Shown here: piece after piece, positions 3,318 to 61,402 of the stretch
How the letters are laid out: each line of letters begins with the position of its first letter
Numbering within the stretch: the stretch's first letter is position 1
DNA from: a virus
Length of the DNA: 61,535 nucleotides
Strand: one strand, 5' to 3'
Virus record (IMG/VR): IMGVR_UViG_3300021475_000014
Location: 1-61,535 of that record
Position numbers and translations under genes: made by a program
Notes under the pieces: generated by a model
What the model was told of the DNA's origin: nothing
Database searches by the model: none
Seen by the model: only the letters and a program-made list of their open reading frames with translations

Positions 3318-3953
3318 GTGTCCAATCTGGATGACCTGACCACCCGCAACTCGGCGGCCAACGAGACGATTGAGGGGGAGATAGTCTTCCCCCACACACC
3401 GTGGGACCGCATGCCGGGCGAGTCGGAGAGCGCCTACGCGCACTTTCTGTCCTACCGGGACCTCGGCCAGGACCGCACCATCGCCCGCGCCGCTGACCGC
3501 GCCCACAAATCCCGGGATCACTTCCACCGGCTGGCCACGCAATGGCAGTGGATCAACCGGGCCAGCGCCTACGACACCGAAATGCACCGGCTGTTCACCG
3601 CGAAGGCCGCCGACGAGCGGCGGGAAATGATCCTGCGGCACGCCAAGCTGGCCCGCAACATCATGTCCATCGTGGAAGCCCGGCTACTGACCATCCCCAT
3701 TGACGAGCTGACCCCCACCGAACTGTCCAGGCTGCTGGAAGTCGCGGCGAAAATGGAACGGGCGTCCTGGAACGAAGAGACAGCCATCCGCGCCCGGGGC
3801 GCGTCCACCATCGACGGTGTGGACCTGGCCCACCTGGACGAGGGTCAGCGGGTCGCCCGGCTCGAAGCGCTGCGCGCTGAGCTGGACCGGCGCATCACCG
3901 CCCGGCGCTCGCTGGCCGCACCCCGCGAGGTGCCGGTGGACGAGCCAGCCTGA
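3318..3953 (+). CDS. Putative terminase small subunit / HTH packaging protein
   Basis: 211 residues, GTG start after GGAGGT. PGESESAYAHFLSYRD and the following RTIARAADRAHKS resemble the N-terminal HTH of proteins annotated as small terminase or phage DNA-binding proteins; the rest is helical and charged. It is a lone plus-strand gene in a minus-strand arm, 43 kb from the large terminase gene on the map, so the assignment is tentative. Its last 59 bases overlap the convergent gene ending at 3895. Confidence 0.5.
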   Translation: MSNLDDLTTRNSAANETIEGEIVFPHTPWDRMPGESESAYAHFLSYRDLGQDRTIARAADRAHKSRDHFHRLATQWQWINRASAYDTEMHRLFTAKAADERREMILRHAKLARNIMSIVEARLLTIPIDELTPTELSRLLEVAAKMERASWNEETAIRARGASTIDGVDLAHLDEGQRVARLEALRAELDRRITARRSLAAPREVPVDEPA

Positions 3954-14948: not shown

Positions 14949-15218
14949 CGTGGGACGTCCGGCCGCGTCCCACTCATCCCACAGCGCGTAAATCGCTGGC
15001 AGGCTTGACGTCTGGCCTGTGTGGCAGTCATACGCGGCTTGCGCGTAGATCCTTGCGAAGTGGTAGGCATCCTCCGAGGGGGCAGGGTGGCCACCGTTGG
15101 CCGCGTCCAACCGCCCACGGGCGTAACCGAGCGCTTCGGACGTCATTTCGTTCAGGTTGAGGTAAGCGTTGTGCCCAAGCGTGGCTTTCGCCAGTGCGCG
15201 GATTTCGCTGATCATCAT
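14943..15218 (-). CDS. Hypothetical protein, 91 aa
   Basis: MMISEIRALAKATLGHNAYL, all helical, ending LWDEWDAAGRPTV. GGAAGGAACCAACC before the ATG. Preceded by the most perfect palindromic promoter (15264-15305). Confidence 0.6.
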   Translation of the reverse strand: MMISEIRALAKATLGHNAYLNLNEMTSEALGYARGRLDAANGGHPAPSEDAYHFARIYAQAAYDCHTGQTSSLPAIYALWDEWDAAGRPTV

Positions 15219-15263
15219 GGTTGGTTCCTTCCGTTGTGCGGCAACGCTTGCTGCCTACGCACA

Positions 15264-15305
15264 ACAATAGCGCGGCTACACAATCTCGTGTAGCCGCGCT
15301 ATTGT
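15264..15305 (-). promoter_or_regulatory. Palindromic promoter with 18-bp arms
   Basis: ACAATAGCGCGGCTACAC (15264-15281), N6, exact complement 15288-15305. Contains the family core GGCTACAC-N6-GTGTAGCC and -10 TATTGT on the minus strand. The long arms also make a hairpin able to terminate the gene upstream on the minus strand or act as operator. Confidence 0.75.
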
Positions 15306-15320
15306 TGGGTACGTCACAGG

Positions 15321-15518
15321 TCAGCCGGACACCACAAACGGGTGCCAGTCCGCCACGCCGATCGCCAGGAACGCCCCACCATCCGTGTCCGCCAGAAGCT
15401 GCACAGCGGCACCCTGGCGCTGCACGGTCACCGTGGTACCCATCGCGTACGCGGGCAGCGCCACAGCGGACACAGCGGCTAGGACAGCGGTAGCGGCGAG
15501 CATGCGAGCGCGGGTCAT
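15321..15518 (-). CDS. Small secreted protein, 65 aa
   Basis: Arg-containing start, hydrophobic core and AYA-like cleavage site (MLAATAVLAAVSAVALPAYA) form a clear signal peptide; the mature part is about 40 residues with no motif. ATG at 15518 overlaps the upstream stop (ATGA). Could act on the cell envelope. Confidence 0.7.
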   Translation of the reverse strand: MTRARMLAATAVLAAVSAVALPAYAMGTTVTVQRQGAAVQLLADTDGGAFLAIGVADWHPFVVSG

Positions 15519-16204
15519 GCGGCACGCTCCGGCAGGGAAGGGAAGCCAGCCACGGCCAACGCCCGGTCGAGCGCTTCCGTGACGTCGTCGGTGTACAGGT
15601 AAGACCAGTCCCATTCGGCCCCGACCGTGTTGGAGTGGACAACCACGAACCGGTCGCGCGTACCCTCGCCACGGTCCACCACGCACACGTACGACGCGGG
15701 CACGGGTGAGCCGTTGAATTGCGGCAGGGCAGCGATGATGCCACCCGCGTTGAACCGTGCGACGTAGTTGGCCACCACGGCAGTGATCGGCTCCGCTTCG
15801 CCGCGCGCTACCGCCCCGGACACGTGATGCCGGAGAGCGGCCAGCCCGGGACTGTCGAAGCGCGACACGGCAGGCTCGGGCGCGTCCGGCTCGGTACCCG
15901 CGTCGATGACGTCCCACCCGCGCGGTGCACGCTCCGCCAGGACGTCAGCCGCGCGGGTGCGATCGAACGGGTGCACCGTGGTTAGCCGCTCGCCATTCAT
16001 CACGGGACCGCGCTGTCCGTCCGGGCGGACAGTCTCAAACCATCCGTCCCACCATCCGGAGTCAACGCGCGACTCGGACACCTTGACGATCACAAGATCC
16101 AAATTGTTGTCCCAGCACGCGAGCCCCTCCGTGATGGTGCGCCCATCCGCCGTGCGGAAACGTGCGTCCGGAGACCCCGGGGGGGTATTTGAAACGGTGC
16201 TCAT
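15515..16204 (-). CDS. Hypothetical protein, 229 aa
   Basis: Soluble alpha/beta protein; notable aromatic patches (VDSGWWDGWFETVRPD; EWDWSYLYTDDVTEAL). Start at 16204 with GAGAGG upstream. Co-transcribed with the small secreted protein, driven by the variant palindromic promoter at 16251. No family recognised. Confidence 0.65.
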   Translation of the reverse strand: MSTVSNTPPGSPDARFRTADGRTITEGLACWDNNLDLVIVKVSESRVDSGWWDGWFETVRPDGQRGPVMNGERLTTVHPFDRTRAADVLAERAPRGWDVIDAGTEPDAPEPAVSRFDSPGLAALRHHVSGAVARGEAEPITAVVANYVARFNAGGIIAALPQFNGSPVPASYVCVVDRGEGTRDRFVVVHSNTVGAEWDWSYLYTDDVTEALDRALAVAGFPSLPERAA

Positions 16205-16250
16205 GGGTGGCCCTACCTCTCGCGGTGCGCCCGTTCGGCGCTGTCCGGCA

Positions 16251-16282
16251 ACCGTAGCGCGCGCTACCGAAAGCGTGTAGCC
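16251..16282 (-). promoter_or_regulatory. Palindromic promoter, variant copy
   Basis: Minus strand: GGCTACACGCTTTCGGTAGCGCG then TACGGT (16251-16256). Left arm is full, right arm matches GGTAGC as in the 12897 copy. Confidence 0.6.
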
Positions 16283-16380
16283 ACGGGCAGGTCGGGAAAC
16301 TCACAAGCCAGCCGCTTGACAACGGCCAACCCCGACACCATGCCGCGTCGGACCGGGCGGCGCGCCGACCACGAAGTAGC

Positions 16381-16770
16381 GCGCTCGCAAGTGGACGGAC
16401 GCCGTCCACATGCGAGCGCGATGCACGTGCACATGCACGTGCATGGGAGCGGAGCGGGACGCTCGCAAGTAGCCGGCTTGCGGGCGTGTCCACAATGGAG
16501 TGGCTACACGGAACGTGTTGCCAATGTGGAGTGTCGACGCCCGTCGATGCGCAGCCGGGCAAAGCGGGGCAAGCCGGGCGCCAGTGTTGCCGCAAAGTGT
16601 TGCTGCGCAACGCTTTCGCGCCGATCCGAGCGCTCCGTCACTGACACGCTGCCAGTGACTCCGATGTGGATGCTCCACATCGGACCGGCCATCGGCCTGC
16701 GCCGATGCGCGTGCATCGGCTCGCGCCGATGCGCCGCGCGCGGCGCGTGTGAGCAAGCTCACACGCGCCG
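16381..16770. other. Array of at least six hairpins, no convincing gene
   Basis: Perfect or near-perfect stems: 16381-16419 (9+8 bp, one A/A mismatch), 16421-16444 (11 bp, 2-base loop), 16489-16530 (containing GGCTACAC-N5-GTGTTGCC), 16637-16659, 16661-16683 (10 bp, loop TGC), 16701-16720 (8 bp) and 16741-16770 (14 bp, loop AA). Open frames on both strands here are compositional. This density is unlike the rest of the window. Candidate structured RNA, origin or packaging element. Confidence 0.8.
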
Positions 16771-16797
16771 CCGGCCGTGACGAGGTTCACCTAGCCC

Positions 16798-16882
16798 GTC
16801 CGGTTCGTGCCCGGTGTCCGTTTTCGAAACGGACACCGTAGGGGTCATCGTTTCGAAACGGACACCGAGGCACGAACCGGAC
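16798..16882. repeat. 26-bp interrupted inverted repeat with alternative pairing
   Basis: Outer arms GTCCGGTTCGTGCC (16798-16811) and GGCACGAACCGGAC (16869-16882); inner arm CGGTGTCCGTTT (16812-16823) can pair either with 16827-16838 or with 16856-16867, two copies of AAACGGACACCG. One A bulge. Two mutually exclusive folds are possible. Confidence 0.85.
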
Positions 16883-17716
16883 GTGCTACCTCCCTCATTT
16901 ATGTTGACCGGCTAGTAGTTTGGGGGTCAAGTCCTCACACTCGTTTTCACGGCGCGTGTTATCCGTTTCAAACTGCCACTGGCGGTATTCATCCGCCGCT
17001 CCGACGTCGTGTCAGGATTCCAACACCAATGCTGAGGCGTCGTGACGTTCACAGCACGTGAACGAAATCGATATCACCTCCTAATTCTCTTTATCTTTCT
17101 TCCTTTTATGTAAAGAGTGTAAGGAAAAGATAGTAAGTAGGTATAGGAGGAAATGGAGAAAGTATATGAGAATACGGGAGAAGGTATATGGGAGAAAGTA
17201 GAGGAGGGAGAATAAGGGAAAACTCAACACCGACACACTTCCTGACACCGGGCGGTTTCCGGGGGGGGCCGGGGGGCGCCGGCTCCGCCGACCAGTCCCT
17301 GCCCAGCTCGTCTCCACGCAGAGCCAGCCCCCCCGAGGTGACCGGGACCATCGATCCCACCCGAAAATCGCTCCACGGCGCTCTCAGTGCCGTTTCCGGC
17401 CGCGTTCGGCGGCGGTCCCCATCGGCCGCCGCGCCGATTCGCACATTTCTGCCGATGGTTTCCGCGACCAGCTCCTGGCGCTCATCGTCGCTCGCGCGTA
17501 CGCGCGCGGGCATGCGCCGCCGACGACTTCCCGGGTACTGCCCATGAATTTCTAGCACTTCTCAGCATTCCGCAGGTCGGGCGCAATACAAACTGACATC
17601 GCCGAAGCTTTGCTGGCAGGCCAGCATTCCTGGCACCACTCAGCACTTCCGCAGGTCGGCCCTTACGGCCGAGGTTTGCAGACTCAACACGCCAATCCAT
17701 CGAGGCTCATCGCTGG
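16883..17716. other. Gene-poor region with AT-rich purine island
   Basis: 17085-17230 drops sharply in GC; from 17110 the plus strand is almost all A and G with degenerate repeats of GGGAGAARGTATAT. ATCACCTCCT (17073-17082), the complement of a full Shine-Dalgarno, borders it without a start codon on the minus strand. Beyond, 17555-17660 has direct repeats of CAGCAYTTCCGCAGGTCGG. I see no convincing gene except a 20-codon frame. Candidate origin with unwinding element. Confidence 0.6.
17153..17215 (+). CDS. Possible 20-residue micro-protein
   Basis: TAGGAGGAA directly precedes ATG; the product begins MEKVYENTGEGIWEK and is acidic. Base composition is wholly unlike phage genes. The purine bias alone could create both the site and the frame, so this is speculative. 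Confidence 0.2.
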   Translation: MEKVYENTGEGIWEKVEEGE

Positions 17717-18139
17717 ATGAGATCGTTGGAGTTGTCAAGCTTTTCCGACCGGCAGCTTGCCCAGCGCCTCTGGGAGCGCTTCTATCGGCGGGACGACGAC
17801 GGCCCGAACCTGTCGTGGGAACCCCCGAACACGGGGCCAATCCCCGCTTCCGGCAGTACAGCCCCGGGCCGTCGTCTGCTTAGGGCAACCACCTCGCACA
17901 CCTCGCCCGGGGGCGGGGTGGCTACCACTATCGACAAAGAACGACGGGCCGTCAGCGGTGTGACGGCCCGTCGATGTATTTGGCACTCTGACCTGCGGCT
18001 GTGCCCGTATTGCGCCGAATTGAAGGCAGATCCTGTGCGTCGTTGTGCGACTACCGCAGGATGGCGGTCGGCGCCGCGTGCCACTCCACGGCACTCGCCC
18101 GGCTCGCTTTCAGGCTCTCGTAGCGTGCGTCCAGGTTGA
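17717..18139 (+). CDS. Doubtful plus-strand frame
   Basis: Opens with MRSLELSSFSDRQLAQRLWE and an acidic/basic stretch that looks protein-like for about 45 residues, then turns Pro/Gly/Ser-rich and runs through the hairpin at 17942-17973, which is opposed to it. No good ribosome site. Either a short damaged gene or chance. Confidence 0.25.
   Translation: MRSLELSSFSDRQLAQRLWERFYRRDDDGPNLSWEPPNTGPIPASGSTAPGRRLLRATTSHTSPGGGVATTIDKERRAVSGVTARRCIWHSDLRLCPYCAELKADPVRRCATTAGWRSAPRATPRHSPGSLSGSRSVRPG
17942..17973 (-). terminator. Perfect 13-bp hairpin terminator
   Basis: CGACGGGCCGTCA (17942-17954), loop GCGGTG, exact complement 17961-17973. On the minus strand it is followed by TTCTTTG, a proper intrinsic terminator for the long operon ending at 18051. 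Confidence 0.85.
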
Positions 18140-18734
18140 ACAGCACCGCATCCCGGGATGGGCCGGTGGCGAAGATGTCAAGGACGTCGATGCCGACGGT
18201 GGCGACACTGCCCGGTTGGTCGCCGCCGGTGGCTACCGTTTCCACCTCCACGCCGGGGGCGAGCCAGGTGTCCATCTGCCGCACGATCCCCGGCGGGTAG
18301 TCGCCCTCGTCGTCCCGGCCGATACGCGCCCAGCCGGTGTAGATGCACAGCACCTGCGGCGGCACGCCGGGGCCGAGGATGACGGCGGAGAGGATCCGTT
18401 CGCCGCAGCCGCGTGCGTAGGCGTCCCGGGCGTCGTCGGCGTCGGTGAAGCACCAGACGTAGGGCTCCCCGTTTTCGGTGCCGAGCACGACGTGGACGGG
18501 GCGCACGGAGGCGGGCCGGGTTTCGTCCGGCCGGTACAGCGGCATCGCGGCGGCAACGGCGGTTTCGCCGTGACGTGTCACCAGCTCCGCCCAGGTGGAC
18601 GCCGAACAGGCCGCCATCCCCCACCAGTGGCGGAATTCGTCGGCGGCGTGGGTGTCGTCGCGGTAGTACAGGCTGACACCCGGATCGCCGGGCACTTCGA
18701 TGCGGGTGCCGTCAGGCCATTCGGTCAGGCTCAT
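18051..18734 (-). CDS. Hypothetical protein, 227 aa
   Basis: MSLTEWPDGTRIEVPGDPGV start overlapping the kinase-like gene (ATGA). Soluble alpha/beta protein, acidic; no catalytic motif recognised. Last gene of the operon before the terminator. Confidence 0.65.
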   Translation of the reverse strand: MSLTEWPDGTRIEVPGDPGVSLYYRDDTHAADEFRHWWGMAACSASTWAELVTRHGETAVAAAMPLYRPDETRPASVRPVHVVLGTENGEPYVWCFTDADDARDAYARGCGERILSAVILGPGVPPQVLCIYTGWARIGRDDEGDYPPGIVRQMDTWLAPGVEVETVATGGDQPGSVATVGIDVLDIFATGPSRDAVLFNLDARYESLKASRASAVEWHAAPTAILR

Positions 18735-30197: not shown

Positions 30198-31112
30198 ATG
30201 CCACTGCCCGTACTCACCACACCAGCGATTGAGGTTGCCGCCCCGACACGGCAACCCCTTCGCGGTGGCCTGCGAGACGCCATCGGTCCCGAGGCGGTCC
30301 ACGACGTGGGCCGCCTCGGCGGCCAGGGTGCCGGCGTCATGTACCTGTCGGACACCTGCAACAGCGCTGTCGGTGCGTTCCCAGCCCCCTGCACCCAAAT
30401 CACGCCGCCGGTCATCGCGGCCGTCGACTGCGCCAACACCGACGACTTGCAGAACGCGGTTGCCATCGATCCGTTCCTGGACGGCAGCATCTTCGATGAA
30501 CAGATCACCTGCACCTGCGCCCAGCGCATCTCCTACGGCGCCCCGTTCACGCTGTGGGCAGCCGCCTGCGTGAACCCCCTCGAAGAACTCGATACCATCA
30601 CCGCCCGCGCCCGCAACACCCTCAACGCGGGCGCCTGGCGCGGCGTGGAACGCATCTTCGCCGCCATCCTCCCGGCCGCCGCCACCGACATCACCCCGGC
30701 CGCCTGTCAGTGCGGCATCGTCGCCGCAGTGTCCGCACTGGAAGGCCAGATGGCCTCCTGCTACGACGGGCAGGGCATCATCCACGCACCGGCATGGGCG
30801 GCACCGTACCTCGCCCAGTACATGCAGTTCTCCAACGACGCCGGGTTCCCACTGCACACCCGGCTCGGGACCCGGTTCGCCCTCGGCGGCGGCTACACCG
30901 GCAACGGCCCCAACGAGGTCGCCACCGACTGCACGTTCTGGATGTACATCACCCCACAGGTGGACGTGTACCGGGGCAACATCACCGTGCCGTCCATCCA
31001 GAAGACGGAACACAACACCACCAAGGCTGTCGCCCAGCAGCCCTACGCCATCACCGTCGACTGCGGCGGCATCTATGGCGCCCGGGTCAACATTGACCCG
31101 GCCTGCGTGTAG
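30198..31112 (+). CDS. Structural protein next to capsid, 304 aa
   Basis: MPLPVLTTPAIEVAAPTRQP start with AAGGACA upstream. Contains TARARNTLNAGAWRGVERIF and APAWAAPYLAQYMQFSNDAG, and LGTRFALGGGYTGNGPN, plus about ten cysteines. It resembles proteins that follow the capsid gene in some actinophages, possibly a second capsid or head-associated protein. Role uncertain. Confidence 0.6.
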   Translation: MPLPVLTTPAIEVAAPTRQPLRGGLRDAIGPEAVHDVGRLGGQGAGVMYLSDTCNSAVGAFPAPCTQITPPVIAAVDCANTDDLQNAVAIDPFLDGSIFDEQITCTCAQRISYGAPFTLWAAACVNPLEELDTITARARNTLNAGAWRGVERIFAAILPAAATDITPAACQCGIVAAVSALEGQMASCYDGQGIIHAPAWAAPYLAQYMQFSNDAGFPLHTRLGTRFALGGGYTGNGPNEVATDCTFWMYITPQVDVYRGNITVPSIQKTEHNTTKAVAQQPYAITVDCGGIYGARVNIDPACV

Positions 31113-46216: not shown

Positions 46217-46423
46217 ATGGTGGGGCCGATGGGGAGCGCGCGACGTGGGCGAGCGCTCCCCATCCTCACTGTCGAGGAATTGCTTGCCACAGTCCTCGCT
46301 GCGGCGTCGGAGGCGCAAACGCCGACCGGGCCAACACCCCGGGATCCACGATCTGACCCGTACGTGGAGCCGCCGTCGACACCGGACGCGGCATCACCCG
46401 GCGCAGACGCGGCGGATAGCTGA
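46217..46423 (+). CDS. Possible small acidic protein, 68 aa
   Basis: ATG after GAAGGC; LTVEELLATVLAAASEAQTP helix then an acidic Pro-rich tail. Overlaps the convergent terminase gene by about 158 bases, so it may be chance. Confidence 0.3.
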   Translation: MVGPMGSARRGRALPILTVEELLATVLAAASEAQTPTGPTPRDPRSDPYVEPPSTPDAASPGADAADS

Positions 46424-47756
46424 TCGTCGCGCCGTAGCTCATCCGCTGGCGCAGCCGCGTGATCCCATGCACCAAGGCGTCCATGCGGTCCGGCGAGTCC
46501 CGGGTGCTGGGCATCCAGGCGCACAGTTGCTCCTCCAACATCGGGAACTCGCCGACGTGATGGACCCGGCCCTGCTCGTAGCGGGCAGCGATCGGTTCGG
46601 CCCGCAGGTGCTTGGAGCGGTTCATCGTCCCGACCGTCACCACCGGCGCCTGCCCGGCCGGCAGGATGTCCCCGTCGGCGGCCTCGTTGTAGGCGTCCTG
46701 CAACACGTCCAGCATCCACAAGTTGGTGCCCTCGATGACCACCTCATCCGCCTGGTAGGCGATGAACGTGCGCCACACCGCAGCCGCCGCTGCCGCACCC
46801 GCCACCTTCGCCGAGGCGTCCGCGAGCACGTAGTCATGCCCGTCCGTGCCGGCAGCCACCACCAGGATGCCCGTCTCGTCGGACGTCTTCGTGGCCGTAC
46901 CGGCCGGGTCCACCGCCACGACGGTGCGTACCAGGGCCGCCGGGACGTCCACCCGCGCGGCCTCGATCCACACGAAGTTGAACAACGCCCCGTCGATGTC
47001 CAGCAGCAGCTCGCCGTCCAGCTCCTGCCGGCCCAGCCGGGTACCGCCGTAGCGGTCGTTCAGCTCCGCCAGCGCCGCCTGAGACAGGTTGGCCGCATTC
47101 TCCGATGTGGAGCCGCGCGTCACGATCACCGACGGGTCGGTGGTGGAGCGGTTGATCAGGTTGCGCAGGTGCGCCACGTTGCGCGGGGTGGTTGTGACGA
47201 TCATCTTCGGTGTGGTCGCCTCGCGCATCGTGAACCACAACATGTCGTAGCAGGTCTGCGCGGTGGCCGGGTGCCAGGCGGAGAACTCGTCGCACCACAC
47301 GCCGTCGAAAGCGTAGCCGCGCAAGGCATCCGGAGCTTCAGATGAGAAACCGCGGATGATCGATCCATTTGCCAGTCGCAATGTGATCAGTCCGAATCCG
47401 CGTTGGAAACTGCGGATCTCGTTGGCGGGAAAGACGGAAATCAGGCCGGCCCGGGGTGCCTCGAAACAGACGTTGAGCACTTCGCGGTTCGACTTGGCCA
47501 GAACCGCGAAGTGCCCACCGGGAGCCTGTGTCGCCCACTTACGCACCGTCTCGGAGCCGGTGCGCGTCTTGCCGTAGCCACGCCCGGCAAGGATCGTCCA
47601 CACGTGGTAGTTGTCCGGCTCCAGTTGGGAGGCTCGGGCGTGCCTCGTCCACTCGTAGCGTTCGGCGTCCTGGTGGGAGCCGATCGCCTTGATCTCCGCC
47701 TCCAGGGCCGTGTCGGTGAGCAGGGCGGGGGCTCTCAGGATCCGCTCCGGTTCCAC
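46266..47756 (-). CDS. terL: Terminase large subunit
   Basis: 496 residues; GTG at 47756. Walker A GRGYGKTRTG near residue 58, Walker B GVWCDEFSAW near 150, coupling motif TTTPRNVAHLRNLI, and the RNase H-like nuclease with VVAVDPAGTATKTSDETGIL and later DALVHGI. It powers DNA packaging and cuts concatemers. It is the first structural-class gene of a minus operon that starts near 49.3 kb and is far from portal (22.9 kb) and from the small-subunit candidate (3.3 kb). Confidence 0.93.
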   Translation of the reverse strand: MEPERILRAPALLTDTALEAEIKAIGSHQDAERYEWTRHARASQLEPDNYHVWTILAGRGYGKTRTGSETVRKWATQAPGGHFAVLAKSNREVLNVCFEAPRAGLISVFPANEIRSFQRGFGLITLRLANGSIIRGFSSEAPDALRGYAFDGVWCDEFSAWHPATAQTCYDMLWFTMREATTPKMIVTTTPRNVAHLRNLINRSTTDPSVIVTRGSTSENAANLSQAALAELNDRYGGTRLGRQELDGELLLDIDGALFNFVWIEAARVDVPAALVRTVVAVDPAGTATKTSDETGILVVAAGTDGHDYVLADASAKVAGAAAAAAVWRTFIAYQADEVVIEGTNLWMLDVLQDAYNEAADGDILPAGQAPVVTVGTMNRSKHLRAEPIAARYEQGRVHHVGEFPMLEEQLCAWMPSTRDSPDRMDALVHGITRLRQRMSYGATISYPPRLRRVMPRPVSTAAPRTGQIVDPGVLARSAFAPPTPQRGLWQAIPRQ

Positions 47757-56229: not shown

Positions 56230-56877
56230 CTATTCGTCGTCCTCATCCTCGGCGACGACATCTGACGCATCGACGTGCTTACGGGTGACCGGCTGCCCAT
56301 CGACCAGCTCCCACGTGTTGGCCCTGCGGTTCCACAAGGCATCGAAGTCGACGTTGTAACGCGCCCACCGCATCGTGAGGCGTCCCCGCTGATACCGGGC
56401 CATGAACGTGGTCAACGCCGGGATGTCGTCCGGGTACATCCGCAGACCCATCCGCGTCTCGATGAGTCGGACATCGACTATGCCGCGCTCCAACTGCCCG
56501 CGCAGCGTGTTGTGGTGGGTGCCGAGAAGCCGGGCGACTTCGTCAATGGAGATCGTCCGCATGATCTCCAGCGTGATCGGCGACAGTCGCACCTTGGCGC
56601 CTTGGGCGACGATCGGCCCGTACGGCGGATCCGTCTCGGTGATGTTGCCCTGCCGGCAGGACAGCAACCCCTCCCGGGCGATGGTCCGTTGTCCACTGCG
56701 GACAGCGTCATCCATCGACAGACCCGGCTGGTTTTTGCGAGCGTGTCGCGCGGCAATTCCGGGCGGCACCTTGCGCATGACCAGGTCGTGTATCTCGGTA
56801 GTGAGGTGCCATTCCCCGTCGGCCAACACCTCCCGGATGGCTGCCCGAACCGAAAAGTCGGGTCCGGGTGTGGTCAT
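56230..56877 (-). CDS. Winged-helix-like protein, 215 aa
   Basis: ATG 56877 overlaps the ParB-like stop (ATGA). DFSVRAAIREVLADGEWHLT, TEIHDLVMRKVPPG resembles a winged helix; later ISIDEVARLLGTHHNTLRGQ is a second HTH. Probably a DNA-binding partner of the ParB-like protein. Confidence 0.65.
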   Translation of the reverse strand: MTTPGPDFSVRAAIREVLADGEWHLTTEIHDLVMRKVPPGIAARHARKNQPGLSMDDAVRSGQRTIAREGLLSCRQGNITETDPPYGPIVAQGAKVRLSPITLEIMRTISIDEVARLLGTHHNTLRGQLERGIVDVRLIETRMGLRMYPDDIPALTTFMARYQRGRLTMRWARYNVDFDALWNRRANTWELVDGQPVTRKHVDASDVVAEDEDDE

Positions 56878-57881
56878 CGTGCGCCCTCCAGCTCTGCCAG
56901 AGCCTTTTGCAGTGTGTTCAGCATGTCGTTCAGCTTGCCAGCCAATTCCTCCCGCTCGCTGTCGGAGGTGTGTTCGATGACCGACGCCATCGGTGGCAGC
57001 ACGCCGATCATGCCGAGCGTCGCCTTCCAGGCCGTCTTCGGACTGCGGACCCGGAGCCCTTTCGTGCCGGACATGTCGCCGGCCTTGCGGGCGCCAATGC
57101 GGTCCGCGTACTCCTCCCGGTGTAGCTCCACAATGGTCAGTTGCTTCGCCGAAGACTTGGTGTCGTTCATTTCGGACACCATCTTGAACGCCGCTTCGGC
57201 GCCGAGGCCGGCGTCGACACACAGCTTCGTGGCGGCGATGAAACCCTCGTCGGTGGACACGTTGTACAGCCGGTTGCGGATGGTGGTCGGTAGCGACTCC
57301 CATTCGGCCCGCCGGATGCCGGCCGCGTCCGCACGGCGGGTTGCGTCGATCTCCGCCTTCGCCTTGCGCAGTAGGCCCGGTGACAGGCTCAGCCGCTTCG
57401 CCGCCTCGGCCAACGGCATTCCGTTGTCCGCCAACCACATTGCGTGGTGCAGGCGTTCCGCGTCGGAGACGTTCTTACCGTGCCGGACGTTGGCCTGGAA
57501 GGTCATGCCGGTCACTACGAGGCCGGAGACGTCCTGCACCACGAAGCCGGCGACCGCATCAAAGTGGGCTTCGATGGCCGCGTGCAGGCGGTGATTACCG
57601 TCGATGACGACGTACTGGCCGGTCTGGTTGCGCCAGAACACCAGCGGCGGGAACTCGTCCCCGTCCAGCATGGCGATCCGATAGCGCTCCACCACGTCCT
57701 TGTCGATGACGTCACCGATGCGAGCCTGGTTTTTCATTGAGCGGGCGACGTCAACGCGATCAAGATTCACCTGTTGGATTGCGTAGTCCACATTCCACTC
57801 GCGCAGCCACTTCTCGATCTCCGGCCACGCGCTGCTGTACTCGTTGTTGTGCAGCCGGCGACCGGCCAATTTGGTAGCCAT
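56874..57881 (-). CDS. ParB-like protein with ParB/Srx domain and HTH
   Basis: 335 residues. DEFPPLVFWRNQTGQYVVID followed by GNHRLHAAIEA is the ParB N-terminal (CTPase/nuclease-like) signature with the GxHR box; PLAEAAKRLSLSPGLLRKAK is the ParB-type HTH. The C-terminus is helical. In phages such proteins act as transcription or partition-like factors; there is no ParA in the window. Confidence 0.8.
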   Translation of the reverse strand: MATKLAGRRLHNNEYSSAWPEIEKWLREWNVDYAIQQVNLDRVDVARSMKNQARIGDVIDKDVVERYRIAMLDGDEFPPLVFWRNQTGQYVVIDGNHRLHAAIEAHFDAVAGFVVQDVSGLVVTGMTFQANVRHGKNVSDAERLHHAMWLADNGMPLAEAAKRLSLSPGLLRKAKAEIDATRRADAAGIRRAEWESLPTTIRNRLYNVSTDEGFIAATKLCVDAGLGAEAAFKMVSEMNDTKSSAKQLTIVELHREEYADRIGARKAGDMSGTKGLRVRSPKTAWKATLGMIGVLPPMASVIEHTSDSEREELAGKLNDMLNTLQKALAELEGAR

Positions 57882-58532
57882 TTAGGCGGCAACCTTCCTC
57901 TTGTAAACGCTCGGATCTTCTTCATTGGGACGACAGACGGTAACGATCGTTAGGGTGTTGGTGTCGATGCACACCCGCATGCCGTTGCGATAGTGCCAAC
58001 GCAGGCCATTGCGAGCGGGCTTCGTGAATACCGGATCGTAGGCGGCTTCCATTGCCTGAACGACTGGGATTTCGCGTTCGACCGCACGTTCGATGGCGTG
58101 TGTACTGAGGTGGTAGCCGCTGGACGCAGCCCGGTCGGCCATGGTTTTGGACTCCAACATCCGAGCATCGACCTGCCCCTGCTCTACCCGGACCAGGATC
58201 GGCGCTGCCGCAGCCTCGGCGGCGGCGGCTTGCGCCGCGATCAGGGCACGCCGGGCTTCTCTCATCGACATAACGGGCAGGTCGCTCTTGTCTTCGATGG
58301 CGAGCTGGCGGCGTGGCTGCGGGGCGGCACGCTGCGTCCGCGCTGCTACCGGTTCCGGGGCGTGCACGCCGGGTCCCTGTTGCGCGACCAGCGTCCAGGA
58401 CCGCATGTCCAGTTCGAACAGGTCGGCGTGTGCAACGCAAAGGTCCAGGGTGAAATGCTCATTGCCGAGGCAGAACGTGACTGTCTTGTCGGCAAATGTC
58501 GGGTTGAAACACCGCACACATGTTCGACTCAT
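57882..58532 (-). CDS. Two-domain protein: Cys-rich N-terminus and DUF4258-like C-terminus
   Basis: 216 residues. CVRCFNPTFADKTVTFCLGN at the start resembles the first part of Lsr2-associated actinobacterial proteins; an Ala/Arg linker follows; the last 75 residues (HLSTHAIERAVEREIPVVQA...WHYRNGMRVCIDTNTLTIVT) fit DUF4258, a RelE-like fold found in toxins. ATG 58532 overlaps a small leader frame; an in-frame ATG at 58613 is an alternative. Confidence 0.65.
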   Translation of the reverse strand: MSRTCVRCFNPTFADKTVTFCLGNEHFTLDLCVAHADLFELDMRSWTLVAQQGPGVHAPEPVAARTQRAAPQPRRQLAIEDKSDLPVMSMREARRALIAAQAAAAEAAAAPILVRVEQGQVDARMLESKTMADRAASSGYHLSTHAIERAVEREIPVVQAMEAAYDPVFTKPARNGLRWHYRNGMRVCIDTNTLTIVTVCRPNEEDPSVYKRKVAA

Positions 58533-58644
58533 GTTAGCGCTCGCATCGCGTCCATTTGTTGATCTACGCTCCTTCACATATTGCGAATCTTGCGTCACCG
58601 GGAGTATTGACATGCGTCACGCCCTGCTGCAACCCCCTGGCCCC

Positions 58645-58662
58645 GTAAAAGTCACCTTTTAC
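58645..58662. terminator. Small hairpin GTAAAAG/CTTTTAC
   Basis: Seven-bp stem with loop TCAC in the 90-170 base gap between 58532 and 58704. Weak; could end the primase operon. Confidence 0.35.
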
Positions 58663-58703
58663 CCTGCCAATATTCATTGATCCAGCAGAAGTTGCTGACG
58701 CAA

Positions 58704-58976
58704 CTAGTGTCGATGATCGGCGAGGATTGGCCCGTAGTCACCACCTCCCCGCTGTGTCCAGTCTTCCCGGTAGTGGAGCTGGCCCCGCCACACGTTGTAC
58801 GTCCACAAGCCGGCCGCCAGCGCCGTCTTTTCGTCCACCGGCACCAGGTCCACAGTGGTGGGGATGCCCTCGGACAAGCCGTGCAGCACCCACCGCCGGC
58901 ACACCTTGCAGCGCGCCACGGTCGCCTCGGTCGTCACCAGGAACCGGGAGCTGTACTTCGTGGATGGCGCGCTCAT
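58704..58976 (-). CDS. Hypothetical protein, 90 aa
   Basis: ATG 58976 overlaps the primase/helicase stop (ATGA). CKVCRRWVLHG gives one CxxC; YNVWRGQLHYREDW is aromatic-rich. Translated with the replication protein, so possibly a replication accessory. Confidence 0.65.
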   Translation of the reverse strand: MSAPSTKYSSRFLVTTEATVARCKVCRRWVLHGLSEGIPTTVDLVPVDEKTALAAGLWTYNVWRGQLHYREDWTQRGGGDYGPILADHRH

Positions 58977-61402
58977 TCGATCTCCTCCGCCAACACGGTG
59001 ATGTTGGTGTAGAAGCCGCCCTTGCTGTCGCGGGTTTCGCCGACGCCGAGGTTGCGCAGCGCCTTCGTCAGCATGATGTTGCTCAGCGGTGCACTGATCC
59101 CCTGCGTGGCGCACCACCGCTGGTATTCCTTGTAGACGGCGTTCTTGCGGACCTTGACTGCGTCACCGCCGCCGAGCAGGCAGCGCTCGTCCAGGAACTC
59201 CCCTGACGCACCGGCGGCTTCCCGCTCGTACTCGCCGGTCGCGGCCGACACCTTTGCCGGCGCCGTCAAGCCTTCCCGGTGGTAGGCGATGCAGCCCTCG
59301 ATGAGCCAGTACAGGATGGCGTTGCCGTACTCCGGGGTCTGGAACAGTTCGCCGAGGGTGTTGTCCTTTTTGTCGTCGGGCACCCGGTGCAGGAACGGGA
59401 TGACCCGCACCCGGCGGAAGAATGCGGAGCCTCCGCGCTTGACGATCGGCTTGTCGTTGGCCATCAACCACAGGGTGCACTTCGGAATGAACGAGTGCAT
59501 CTGGTTGGCGTACAGCACGCGGCAGGTGATGGCGTCCCCACCGGAGAGTTCCTTCAATCGCTGCTCATCGAATTGCGCCGCGTCGGCCACTTCCGCCGCG
59601 AGCACGAACCGGGGACCGTCGAGGGCCAACAGTTCGGTGGGGTGCGGGCCGTTGGTGCGCACCATGAACCATTCGCTGTTGGCCTTCAGCGCGTAGCTGC
59701 CGAGGATGTGTCGCACCGTCTCCAGCAGAACCGTCTTGCCGTTCTGTCCGGTGTGGCCATAGCACAGGGCGATGATTTGTTCCTGATTGTGGCCGAGCAG
59801 GCTGTAGCCCAATAGTTTCTGGACGTAGGCCGTCAGTTCGCGGTCAGCCTGGAAGATTTCGTCCAGGAACTGGAACCAGCGTGGCGCGTGCGCGTTCGGG
59901 TCGGGGGTGTAGTTGCTGATTCGGGTGATCAGGAATTCGGGATTGTGCGGGCCGATCAGCCCCGTCCGCACGTCGACAATTCCGCCGGCCGTGTTGAACA
60001 GGTGCGCGTCGGCATCCCAACCATCGGCCGGGATTTGGAGTGTCGGGCTGCGCCGGGCGAGCTGTTCCACGCCGGAGAGAAAGCCGGACGCCGTGCAGCG
60101 GCCGGTGCCTTTCGGGTCGGGCAGGTCGCGGCAGACCTGTTCGATGAGTCGCCAGTGTGTTCCCTGGCGATCGTCCTGCAACACCCAAGCCCCGCCCTCG
60201 TAGACAAACCAGCCCAGCCGGGCGGTTGAGCGCACGATGGGGCGACACCGTTGCGCGAAAGAATCGGCAATCTCCAGTTGCCCAACGAGCTTGGACTTGG
60301 TCGGTTGCGGCACATTTAAATCTATTGTCGTGATGGGTGTCGATACCGCGGGCTTGGATTGTGGCAGCAGCGCCGCGATCAGGTCCGCTTGCGTCTCCTG
60401 CTCGTCGCCGAATCCGAGTGCCTTCAACGCTTTCGCCGCCACCGAGTGGTCGCCGCCGTGGTTGAGCAGGGCGTATGCGCCGAACTTGGTGTAGGGCCGT
60501 TCCGGGTCGAAAACGGTGGACGAGGAAAACACGTACAGCCGGTCCCGGTCGGCGGCGTTGCCGGTGGTGGCCGAGGTGAACAGGCCAGCCTTGCCGGGCC
60601 GGCACCACTTCGTGGTGCGCCCCTCGCGGCCGACAACGCGCCAGCCGTGCGGTTGCAGGATTTCCGCCCAGGTGGTGCGTGCTTCGAAGTCGTCGCCGGG
60701 ACGCAACCCGGTGTGCCCGGCCTGCGGTGGGAGCGGGTCCGGTACCGGGGTGGAGAACAGCATGTCGTCGCACTCGGCGCGCATCACCCGCACCAGGCTC
60801 TCCCGTTGGGAGCCGGTGATGGTGGGGATGGTGGCCGGCTGCCCCGCAACGACCGTCCAGGACCGTCCTGACGGGTGCGTGGTGCCATTGCTGGGCGCAG
60901 TCACCACCCAACCGCCTTCGCCGCGCGTCTCGATCAGCACCTTGATCCGGTCGTCGGGTGCCACCGACAACTCCGCCTCGGTGGCGGGCCGGCGGGCAAT
61001 CTTGGTGTTGCCCGGTACCGGGACGTCGCTGACGTAGAAGTACAGGTGCCGGCCGCCGGTGGGCGACTCCTCGATGTAGCCGGTGGTGATCTGCTGCCAC
61101 AGCTCGCCGAGCCCGAGCGCCTCGCACGCGGCGGCGACCGCCTCGTAGGCGCCCTCGTCCATGGCGCGGGCTTCGAACTCGACCATCTCCAGTCCGCCGG
61201 AAATCTTGCCGCACACCACACCCATGCCGGCGTGCCCGGCGGCGAACCAGGAGGCCAGGTCGTTGAGGTCGGGGCGGCGGGTCTGGAACTGTTTCCAGCC
61301 GGTCAGGCCGGGGCGCTTGGATCCATCGGTGGCAGCCGGCAGCACGCAGGCGCCGACCTGCCACCACGCCAGAGCGGCGTTGAACACCGCGTCGTCGGCC
61401 AT
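58973..61402 (-). CDS. Prim-pol primase / SF3-type helicase fusion
   Basis: 809 residues. N-terminal half: ALAWWQVGACVLPAATDGSK, RPGLTGWKQFQTRRP, SPTGGRHLYFYVSD and VLIETRGEGGWVVTAPS form a bifunctional primase-polymerase (PF09250-like) domain. C-terminal half: D5-like region, Walker A in GHTGQNGKTVLLETVRHILG near residue 545, then LAAEVADAAQFDEQRLKELS and SFIPKCTLWLMANDKPIV, as in phage SF3/D5 helicases, ending in a winged helix (VKVRKNAVYKEYQRWCATQG). It primes and unwinds phage DNA. AAGGATTCC precedes the ATG at the edge of the terminal repeat. Confidence 0.9.
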   Translation of the reverse strand: MADDAVFNAALAWWQVGACVLPAATDGSKRPGLTGWKQFQTRRPDLNDLASWFAAGHAGMGVVCGKISGGLEMVEFEARAMDEGAYEAVAAACEALGLGELWQQITTGYIEESPTGGRHLYFYVSDVPVPGNTKIARRPATEAELSVAPDDRIKVLIETRGEGGWVVTAPSNGTTHPSGRSWTVVAGQPATIPTITGSQRESLVRVMRAECDDMLFSTPVPDPLPPQAGHTGLRPGDDFEARTTWAEILQPHGWRVVGREGRTTKWCRPGKAGLFTSATTGNAADRDRLYVFSSSTVFDPERPYTKFGAYALLNHGGDHSVAAKALKALGFGDEQETQADLIAALLPQSKPAVSTPITTIDLNVPQPTKSKLVGQLEIADSFAQRCRPIVRSTARLGWFVYEGGAWVLQDDRQGTHWRLIEQVCRDLPDPKGTGRCTASGFLSGVEQLARRSPTLQIPADGWDADAHLFNTAGGIVDVRTGLIGPHNPEFLITRISNYTPDPNAHAPRWFQFLDEIFQADRELTAYVQKLLGYSLLGHNQEQIIALCYGHTGQNGKTVLLETVRHILGSYALKANSEWFMVRTNGPHPTELLALDGPRFVLAAEVADAAQFDEQRLKELSGGDAITCRVLYANQMHSFIPKCTLWLMANDKPIVKRGGSAFFRRVRVIPFLHRVPDDKKDNTLGELFQTPEYGNAILYWLIEGCIAYHREGLTAPAKVSAATGEYEREAAGASGEFLDERCLLGGGDAVKVRKNAVYKEYQRWCATQGISAPLSNIMLTKALRNLGVGETRDSKGGFYTNITVLAEEIE

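Follow-up and report, generated by a model that had tools for sequence, protein, structure and literature searches.

We find that the largest non-coding gap of a 61,535-bp viral genome record holds a dense array of hairpins, and that this array is a real, conserved and unusual DNA feature. The reading that we favor, with a probability of about 0.42, is that the array and a nearby AT-rich island form one cis-acting DNA element for genome replication, serving as a primary or an auxiliary origin. The choice of start site by PrimPol/SF3 replication proteins is poorly known and for pRN1 rests on one stem-loop. If the array is selected for its hairpins while individual stems turn over, it would allow a direct test of structure-based versus sequence-based origin recognition in phages. 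If it is a true origin, it could supply a portable replicon for actinobacteria, and if it turns out to act as RNA, a new and large RNA would be added to those of phages.

The phage and its relatives

The window, by which we mean the whole stretch of DNA analyzed here, is a linear IMG/VR virus record of 61,535 bp. Judged from its genes it is a tailed phage, with portal, protease, major head, head-tail adaptor, major tail, TerL-like and TerS-like proteins, and it also encodes a tyrosine recombinase, a serine-recombinase-like gene, an exonuclease and a PrimPol-type replication protein (Rep). This soil phage likely has an actinobacterial host, since the protease matches in phage records (846 records) are nearly all to actinophages. 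The two recombinase genes, one of the tyrosine type and one serine-recombinase-like, occur together in this one phage at 51454-52815 and 54006-54905.

Besides the window, only two records carry the array. IMGVR_UViG_3300021403_000020 (G001) is ~99% identical to the window across the array, and IMGVR_UViG_3300036846_000911 (G002) is a diverged relative with a portal 69% and a Rep 52% identical to those of the window; its map runs in the reverse orientation, is circularly permuted and spans the window's ends. As G001 is nearly identical to the window, the comparison comprises two independent sequences. Scans of viral records with two DNA patterns and an MCP profile returned only these two records, a protease scan of viral records returned only G001, and portal, primase and TerL scans added only more distant records. 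Apart from G001 and G002, none of the 43 loci found with the portal profile exceeded 39% identity, and the two loci from a scan of genome contigs were both distant. A DNA search of 23 records gave short matches (at most ~43 bp) in three and homologous ones in none, and BLASTN of the array against plasmids and phages gave nothing useful.

A dense hairpin array in the largest non-coding gap

Between positions 16376 and 16900, symmetric scoring of both strands gives 12 non-overlapping hairpins that cover 303 of the 525 bases (Table 1), and 126 of their 132 pairs are Watson-Crick (WC), the others being three G-T, one A-C and two of other kinds. Ten hairpins have at least 8 WC pairs and together hold 113 such pairs, compared with a mean of 3.8 hairpins (maximum, 8) and 35.5 WC pairs (maximum, 69) in 200 dinucleotide shuffles. 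The sequence-only reading of this region, which had described at least six stems of 8 to 17 bp, is thus borne out by a count above that of every shuffle, and the loops of 2 to 3 bases that it reported are seen in hairpins 2, 8 and 11. The hairpin score per 500 bp is 81 at the array and 34 at the next place in the genome. When 300-nt segments were regressed on GC content, those starting at 16601, 16701, 16501 and 16401 took structure ranks 1, 2, 4 and 5 of 613. The fold z-scores of the array are -13.8 (plus strand) and -15.0 (minus strand) as RNA and -16.3 as DNA. In a dense-hairpin scan of 12 records, the maxima outside G000 to G002 ranged from 24 to 67; the highest (G012, at 1451) and the peaks of G007 and G014 were rejected as homologous arrays, their stems lying by eye within or between other genes in G012 and among other genes in the two others.

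Table 1. Features of the window discussed in the text
Feature	Position	Strand	Description
Largest non-coding gap of the genome	16205-18050		1,846 bp counted from the ATG at 16204, or 1,957 bp from the start given by the gene caller
Hairpin 1	16380-16420		18 WC pairs and one A-A mismatch, loop of 3
Hairpin 2	16421-16444		perfect 11 bp, loop of 2
Hairpin 3	16459-16487		10 WC pairs and one G-T, loop of 7; hairpin at the same place in G002 (by eye)
Hairpin 4	16501-16523		9 WC pairs with a single mismatch; resembles the intergenic GGCTACAC/GTGTAGCC family as a degenerate copy
Hairpin 5	16534-16547		6 bp, loop of 2
Hairpin 6	16594-16616		9 WC pairs and one G-T, loop of 3; conserved in part in G002
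Hairpin 7	16637-16659		9 WC pairs and one A-C; one pair changed on both sides in G002
Hairpin 8	16660-16684		perfect 11 bp, loop of 3; an 18-bp perfect stem instead in G002
Hairpins 9 and 10	16690-16734		7 WC pairs; 9 WC pairs and one G-T; one 17-bp perfect stem instead in G002
Hairpin 11	16740-16771		perfect 15 bp, loop of 2
Hairpin 12	16792-16888		long inverted repeat of 97 nt, 38 of 39 stem pairs WC
AT-rich island	17061-17220		purine-rich on the plus strand; three imperfect direct repeats 21-22 bp apart
Terminator-like hairpin	17942-17973	-	13 bp with a T-rich tail, just after the leftward operon ending at 18051
TGCGTCA cluster, candidate rival origin	58591-58702		three copies near the rep 3' end; iteron motif of G025
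Replication protein Rep	58973-61402	-	Prim-Pol (PF09250), D5_N (PF08706), P4-family helicase (TIGR01613), C-terminal winged helix

The array had been placed at 16381-16770, where it indeed lies, but that right edge is too short and leaves out hairpin 12, which also has an alternative 12-bp hairpin at 16812-16838. Likewise, the AT-rich island said to be next to the array exists but is found beyond hairpin 12 and not directly adjacent. It includes the 120 bp with the lowest GC content in the window (33%, the next being 47%), starting at 17071, ~200 bp from the array. The corresponding minimum of G002 (41%, start 30411) is beside its array as well. The AT minimum of the genome accompanies the array in the window, G001 and G002 alike. 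Repeats resembling TCCTNACAC at 16932-17250 were picked after the fact. On the minus strand of the island, at 17072-17084, the sequence AGGAGGTGAT is by eye a near-perfect Shine-Dalgarno match with no obvious reading frame behind it.

The next largest non-coding gap of the genome measures 542 bp. Genes were called with a simple codon-usage caller trained on seven open reading frames. It chose no gene between the stems, in agreement with the earlier claim, though six-frame open reading frames cross the array, and its leftward genes on both sides fit the proposed switch from solitary small genes to a long operon. The array was also rightly held not to be a series of terminators: its stems are without T tails, and none of the terminator-like sites of 15200-18300 is inside 16380-16890. 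A search of 15200-18300 that covered sigma-70-like promoters alone found none. A tRNA/tmRNA search found none, and DnaA boxes were not enriched at the array (2 near matches of the genome's 29).

Two intergenic repeat families, the GGCTACAC..GTGTAGCC hairpins and TTGATCTTGGTCA, occur among the leftward small genes (starts 11032, 13287, 13752 and 15255; 8408, 11529 and 12361) and are possibly promoter or operator elements. By eye, G002 has a different family, TTGTCCGGTCGGACA, at the same place. One stem of the array had been said to contain the promoter-family palindrome; hairpin 4 does resemble the first family, but as a degenerate copy only, matched by eye. Elsewhere, positions 1-300, which open with a palindrome-like stem at the end of the contig, come second in the genome for structure relative to GC content (z = -3.8); this may be genuine or an artifact of the assembly end.

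Conservation with turnover of stems

The array of G002 is at the homologous place and takes ranks 1 and 2 of 625 in the same 300-nt regression on GC. This stretch has 7 hairpins with at least 8 WC pairs (shuffle maximum, 6) and 89 WC pairs (shuffle maximum, 61), with fold z-scores of -10.2 and -10.3 for the two strands as RNA and -11.2 as DNA. In BLASTN, the only part of the array that aligns between the window and G002 is 16798-16888, at 76% identity. Hairpin 12 is conserved in G002, and the 14 bases at the apex of hairpin 11, GTGAGCAAGCTCAC (16749-16762), are identical there and have no other match in the window at up to two mismatches. Where the window has hairpins 8 to 10, G002 shows two perfect stems, one of 18 bp and one of 17 bp, that differ from them in sequence.

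Two of 32 pairs in the 97-nt inverted repeat are changed on both sides between the window and G002, and 95.8% of cells pair, compared with 29-41% in slid controls. In the stretch of hairpins 6 and 7, one of 19 pairs is double-changed and 86.8% of cells are paired (26-41% when slid). The replaced stems were left out of this count because MAFFT misaligns them. In shuffle controls, 43 of 500 and 248 of 500 reached the observed number of double changes, which therefore does not separate from chance, and it is the slid controls that discriminate. Compensatory changes in relatives, proposed as the check on this structure, were accordingly found, three in all, but in two independent sequences and with shuffle controls that do not discriminate. 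Position and hairpin-forming capacity thus persist while stem sequences turn over, as expected from selection for hairpins. Templated correction of palindromes could be an alternative source of perfect stems.

Replication protein and iterons

The Prim-Pol and D5_N domains of Rep score above the Pfam cut-offs, and its TIGR01613 match reaches 233 bits against a cut-off of 108.7. A 370-residue model of Rep had a mean pLDDT of 37 and was usable at the C-terminus only; the last 84 residues, modelled alone, gave a winged helix with a mean pLDDT of 67.7. This model matched RFX domains (Z = 10.3, with an rmsd of 2.0 over 76 aligned residues, and Z = 8.4) and AsfvPrimPol (Z = 7.2). The predicted fold also resembles the P4 origin-binding domain 1ka8 (Z = 6.9, rmsd 3.1, 77 aligned), with a Z in the tool's common range.

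In G002, the 991 bp beside the array hold 12 copies of ATGACA, compared with 13 in the remaining 62.3 kb; of the 77 copies of its core TGACA in the record, as many as 14 fall within 500 bp at 30201. TGACA forms no cluster at the window's own array. In the Arthrobacter phages RootBeer and Peas, TGACA clusters directly 3' of the homologous rep (8 of 37 and 9 of 55 copies in 500 bp). In MarkPhew (22 kb of the record examined) all eight copies of ATCTGTGC are in the 412-bp gap 3' of rep, and in G025 all four copies of ATGCGTCA are at the rep 3' end. Bridgette (5.5 kb examined) had no 8-mer at threshold, with the same motif visible by eye, and Shambre1 (6 kb examined) had no repeat cluster 3' of rep, so that a clear cluster at this place was found in four of six phages or records with a related Rep. 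The joint pattern of TGACA and AACTT is without support (0 in G002 and 3 in Peas), which leaves the TGACA core as the one part that we claim to be shared. The iteron sites of RootBeer and Peas have fold z-scores of -6.9 and -6.4, and the best structure ranks (21 of 391 in RootBeer, 30 of 439 in Peas, 234 of 344 in G025 and 6 of 219 in MarkPhew) are not extreme in any case; a dense array is therefore no general part of such origins.

The window has 12 copies of TGCGTCA. Three of them (58591, 58613 and 58696) are in a 186-bp gap, two more (59159 and 59204) are inside rep, and no other place in the window genome has three within 186 bp. The motif is absent from 16205-18050. Going by the motif and its location, the cluster at the rep 3' end is likely a Rep-binding site and thus a rival origin, and the gap (58518-58703) contains no hairpin with at least 8 WC pairs. 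On the permuted map, ~17 kb separate the array from rep.

Repeat clusters were noticed in other records as well. One of ATGCGTCA is beside a low-GC spot in G005 (47290-47540), Saccharomonospora phage PIS 136 (L107-L111; 39850, 58127) has nine copies of TGGAACCA and eight of AATTCCGG, and the distant relative G007 (L089, 5950-7150) has extremely dense GGACA/TGTCC over ~1.2 kb.

Discussion

The replication reading is favored because the array occupies the largest non-coding gap, next to AT minima, is the top-structured place in two diverged genomes and keeps its position. It is further favored by the TGACA clusters, beside the array in G002 and 3' of rep in RootBeer and Peas, by the matches of the modelled Rep winged helix, by near-perfect WC stems with balanced G-T and A-C mismatches, as in DNA-level palindromes, and by the pRN1 precedent. 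It is weakened by the rep-type TGCGTCA iterons of the window being beside rep, by TGACA being unclustered at the array, by relatives with this Rep type that are without a comparable array, by the lack of DnaA-box enrichment, by a Z for the P4 fold match that the tool counts as common, and by the distance from rep, whereas the pRN1 stem-loop adjoins its rep. The rep-type repeats beside rep and the unclustered TGACA are what lowered our estimate to its present value. As a mechanism, Rep or a partner would bind near the AT island, the island would melt, and the hairpins would extrude in supercoiled DNA or form in an exposed single strand, where they could provide a platform for assembly or priming, along the lines suggested for the pRN1 stem-loop origin. 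In its most specific form, this would be a platform on which a PrimPol/D5-type phage Rep assembles or primes on many independent near-perfect DNA hairpins, the structure being kept while stems are lost and re-formed; it would multiply the single stem-loop of pRN1, possibly as a second cis site besides the iterons near rep. We consider this form quite unlikely. P4 needs two cis sites, ori and crr; by analogy the array may act as a second such site, or it may be no origin at all. Of the three functions guessed by the sequence-only reading (an origin, a structured RNA that sponges a host factor and a packaging site), the origin is the best supported, through the AT islands, the G002 iterons and Rep, and is at the same time weakened by the iterons at 58.6 kb.

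Whether the hairpins act as DNA or as RNA bears directly on the sponge guess, which stands as a serious rival in the wider form that the array would give rise to a large and structured non-coding RNA belonging to a new family, be it a regulator, a host-factor sponge or a replication primer in an RNA-based origin. When a helix functions as RNA, it is the transcribed strand on which G-U pairs build up. Here the ratios of G-T to A-C are 7:9 in the window, 9:9 in L005 and 8:6 in L007 (3:1 and 6:4 under symmetric scoring), and stems that are nearly all WC, with wobble of no clear asymmetry, are somewhat in favor of DNA-level palindromes and indicate no RNA strand. The strong RNA fold z-scores of the window and G002 would suit an RNA, but both strands fold equally well. 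Taken alone, the stem of hairpin 12 leans toward the plus strand (four G-U-compatible cells against one A-C). No Rfam match reached the gathering threshold in the whole window or in L007 17480-19260, and the sub-threshold matches (mir-39 and others) were taken as chance matches to long stems. RNA-based origins of extrachromosomal prophages, described for mycobacteriophages in PMC7157519, give an actinophage precedent; on the other side, no sigma-70-like promoter was found in 15200-18300. On balance we hold an RNA rather unlikely.

We judge it doubtful that the only working origin is at 58.6 kb next to rep and that the array is unrelated to replication. The five TGCGTCA copies in the gap and in rep are 5 of the genome's 12, the same motif is 3' of rep in G025, and the gap has 51% GC. 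However, the gap has only three full copies, none was seen at the corresponding place of G002, whose iteron cluster is instead beside its array, and the low-GC island of the window is at 17.07 kb. A control element that acts at the DNA level but not as an origin (a transcription insulator separating the leftward operon from the small genes, a centromere-like site or a recombination site) is a live rival, though unlikely. The position of the array just after the terminator-like hairpin of the operon, a ParB-like protein encoded at 56874-57881 (PHROG match) and the two recombinase genes speak for it; the absence of T tails and of terminator-like sites among the stems, conserved motifs of hairpins 11 and 12 that are unique in the window genome, unlike dispersed operators or multi-site centromeres, and the location of the integrase genes at 51-55 kb speak against it. 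A packaging (cos/pac) site, for which structure alone can be cited, is very improbable given that the TerL-like gene (46266-47756) and the TerS-like gene (3318-3953) are ~30 kb and ~13 kb from the array. The confidences in these explanations overlap and need not sum to one, since the array could have several roles and an origin at 58.6 kb is compatible with the array being an RNA or a control element.

Among known systems, the P4-family iteron origins share with the window the TIGR01613 helicase, a P4-like winged helix in the Rep model and an AT island, with iterons in G002, but the iterons of the window are at 58.6 kb. To our knowledge, dense hairpins are no part of the P4-family iteron origins of phages and plasmids. 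Set against the usual marks of an iteron/AT-island origin, the AT island is present, and clustered iterons are found beside the array in G002 and are weak in the window. PMC7145576 describes the origin of a satellite, with iterons, in a non-coding region. The RNA-based prophage origins resemble our case in an actinophage-like genome and a non-coding region, but those phages are without repA and have parABS (PMC7157519), whereas the window has a PrimPol Rep and recombinases. Streptomyces telomeres (PMC4513846) have tightly packed palindromes too, but the array is internal on a circularly permuted map. A linear-replicon telomere was rejected on these grounds, the array being internal on both maps, that of the window and that of G002, which runs across the window's ends. 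Among the titles listed in searches of open-licence PMC papers, none describes densely arrayed hairpins at the origin of an actinophage. One of the closest parallels is pRN1, whose origin is a 100-bp stem-loop of which the integrity is required; its Rep combines an AEP primase with an SF3 helicase and a winged helix, and the authors extend this proposal to phage BIP-1 (PMC4234260). For the window, the pairing kept in G002 bears on such a need for stem integrity only indirectly. The window differs in having about a dozen hairpins rather than one, an AT island, iterons in G002, an array that does not adjoin rep, so that there is no stem-loop directly 3' of rep, and a function that is putative. 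Like pRN1, it combines a Rep of PrimPol, D5/SF3-type helicase and predicted C-terminal winged helix with a stem-loop of ~100 nt, which in the window is the 97-nt inverted repeat of hairpin 12.
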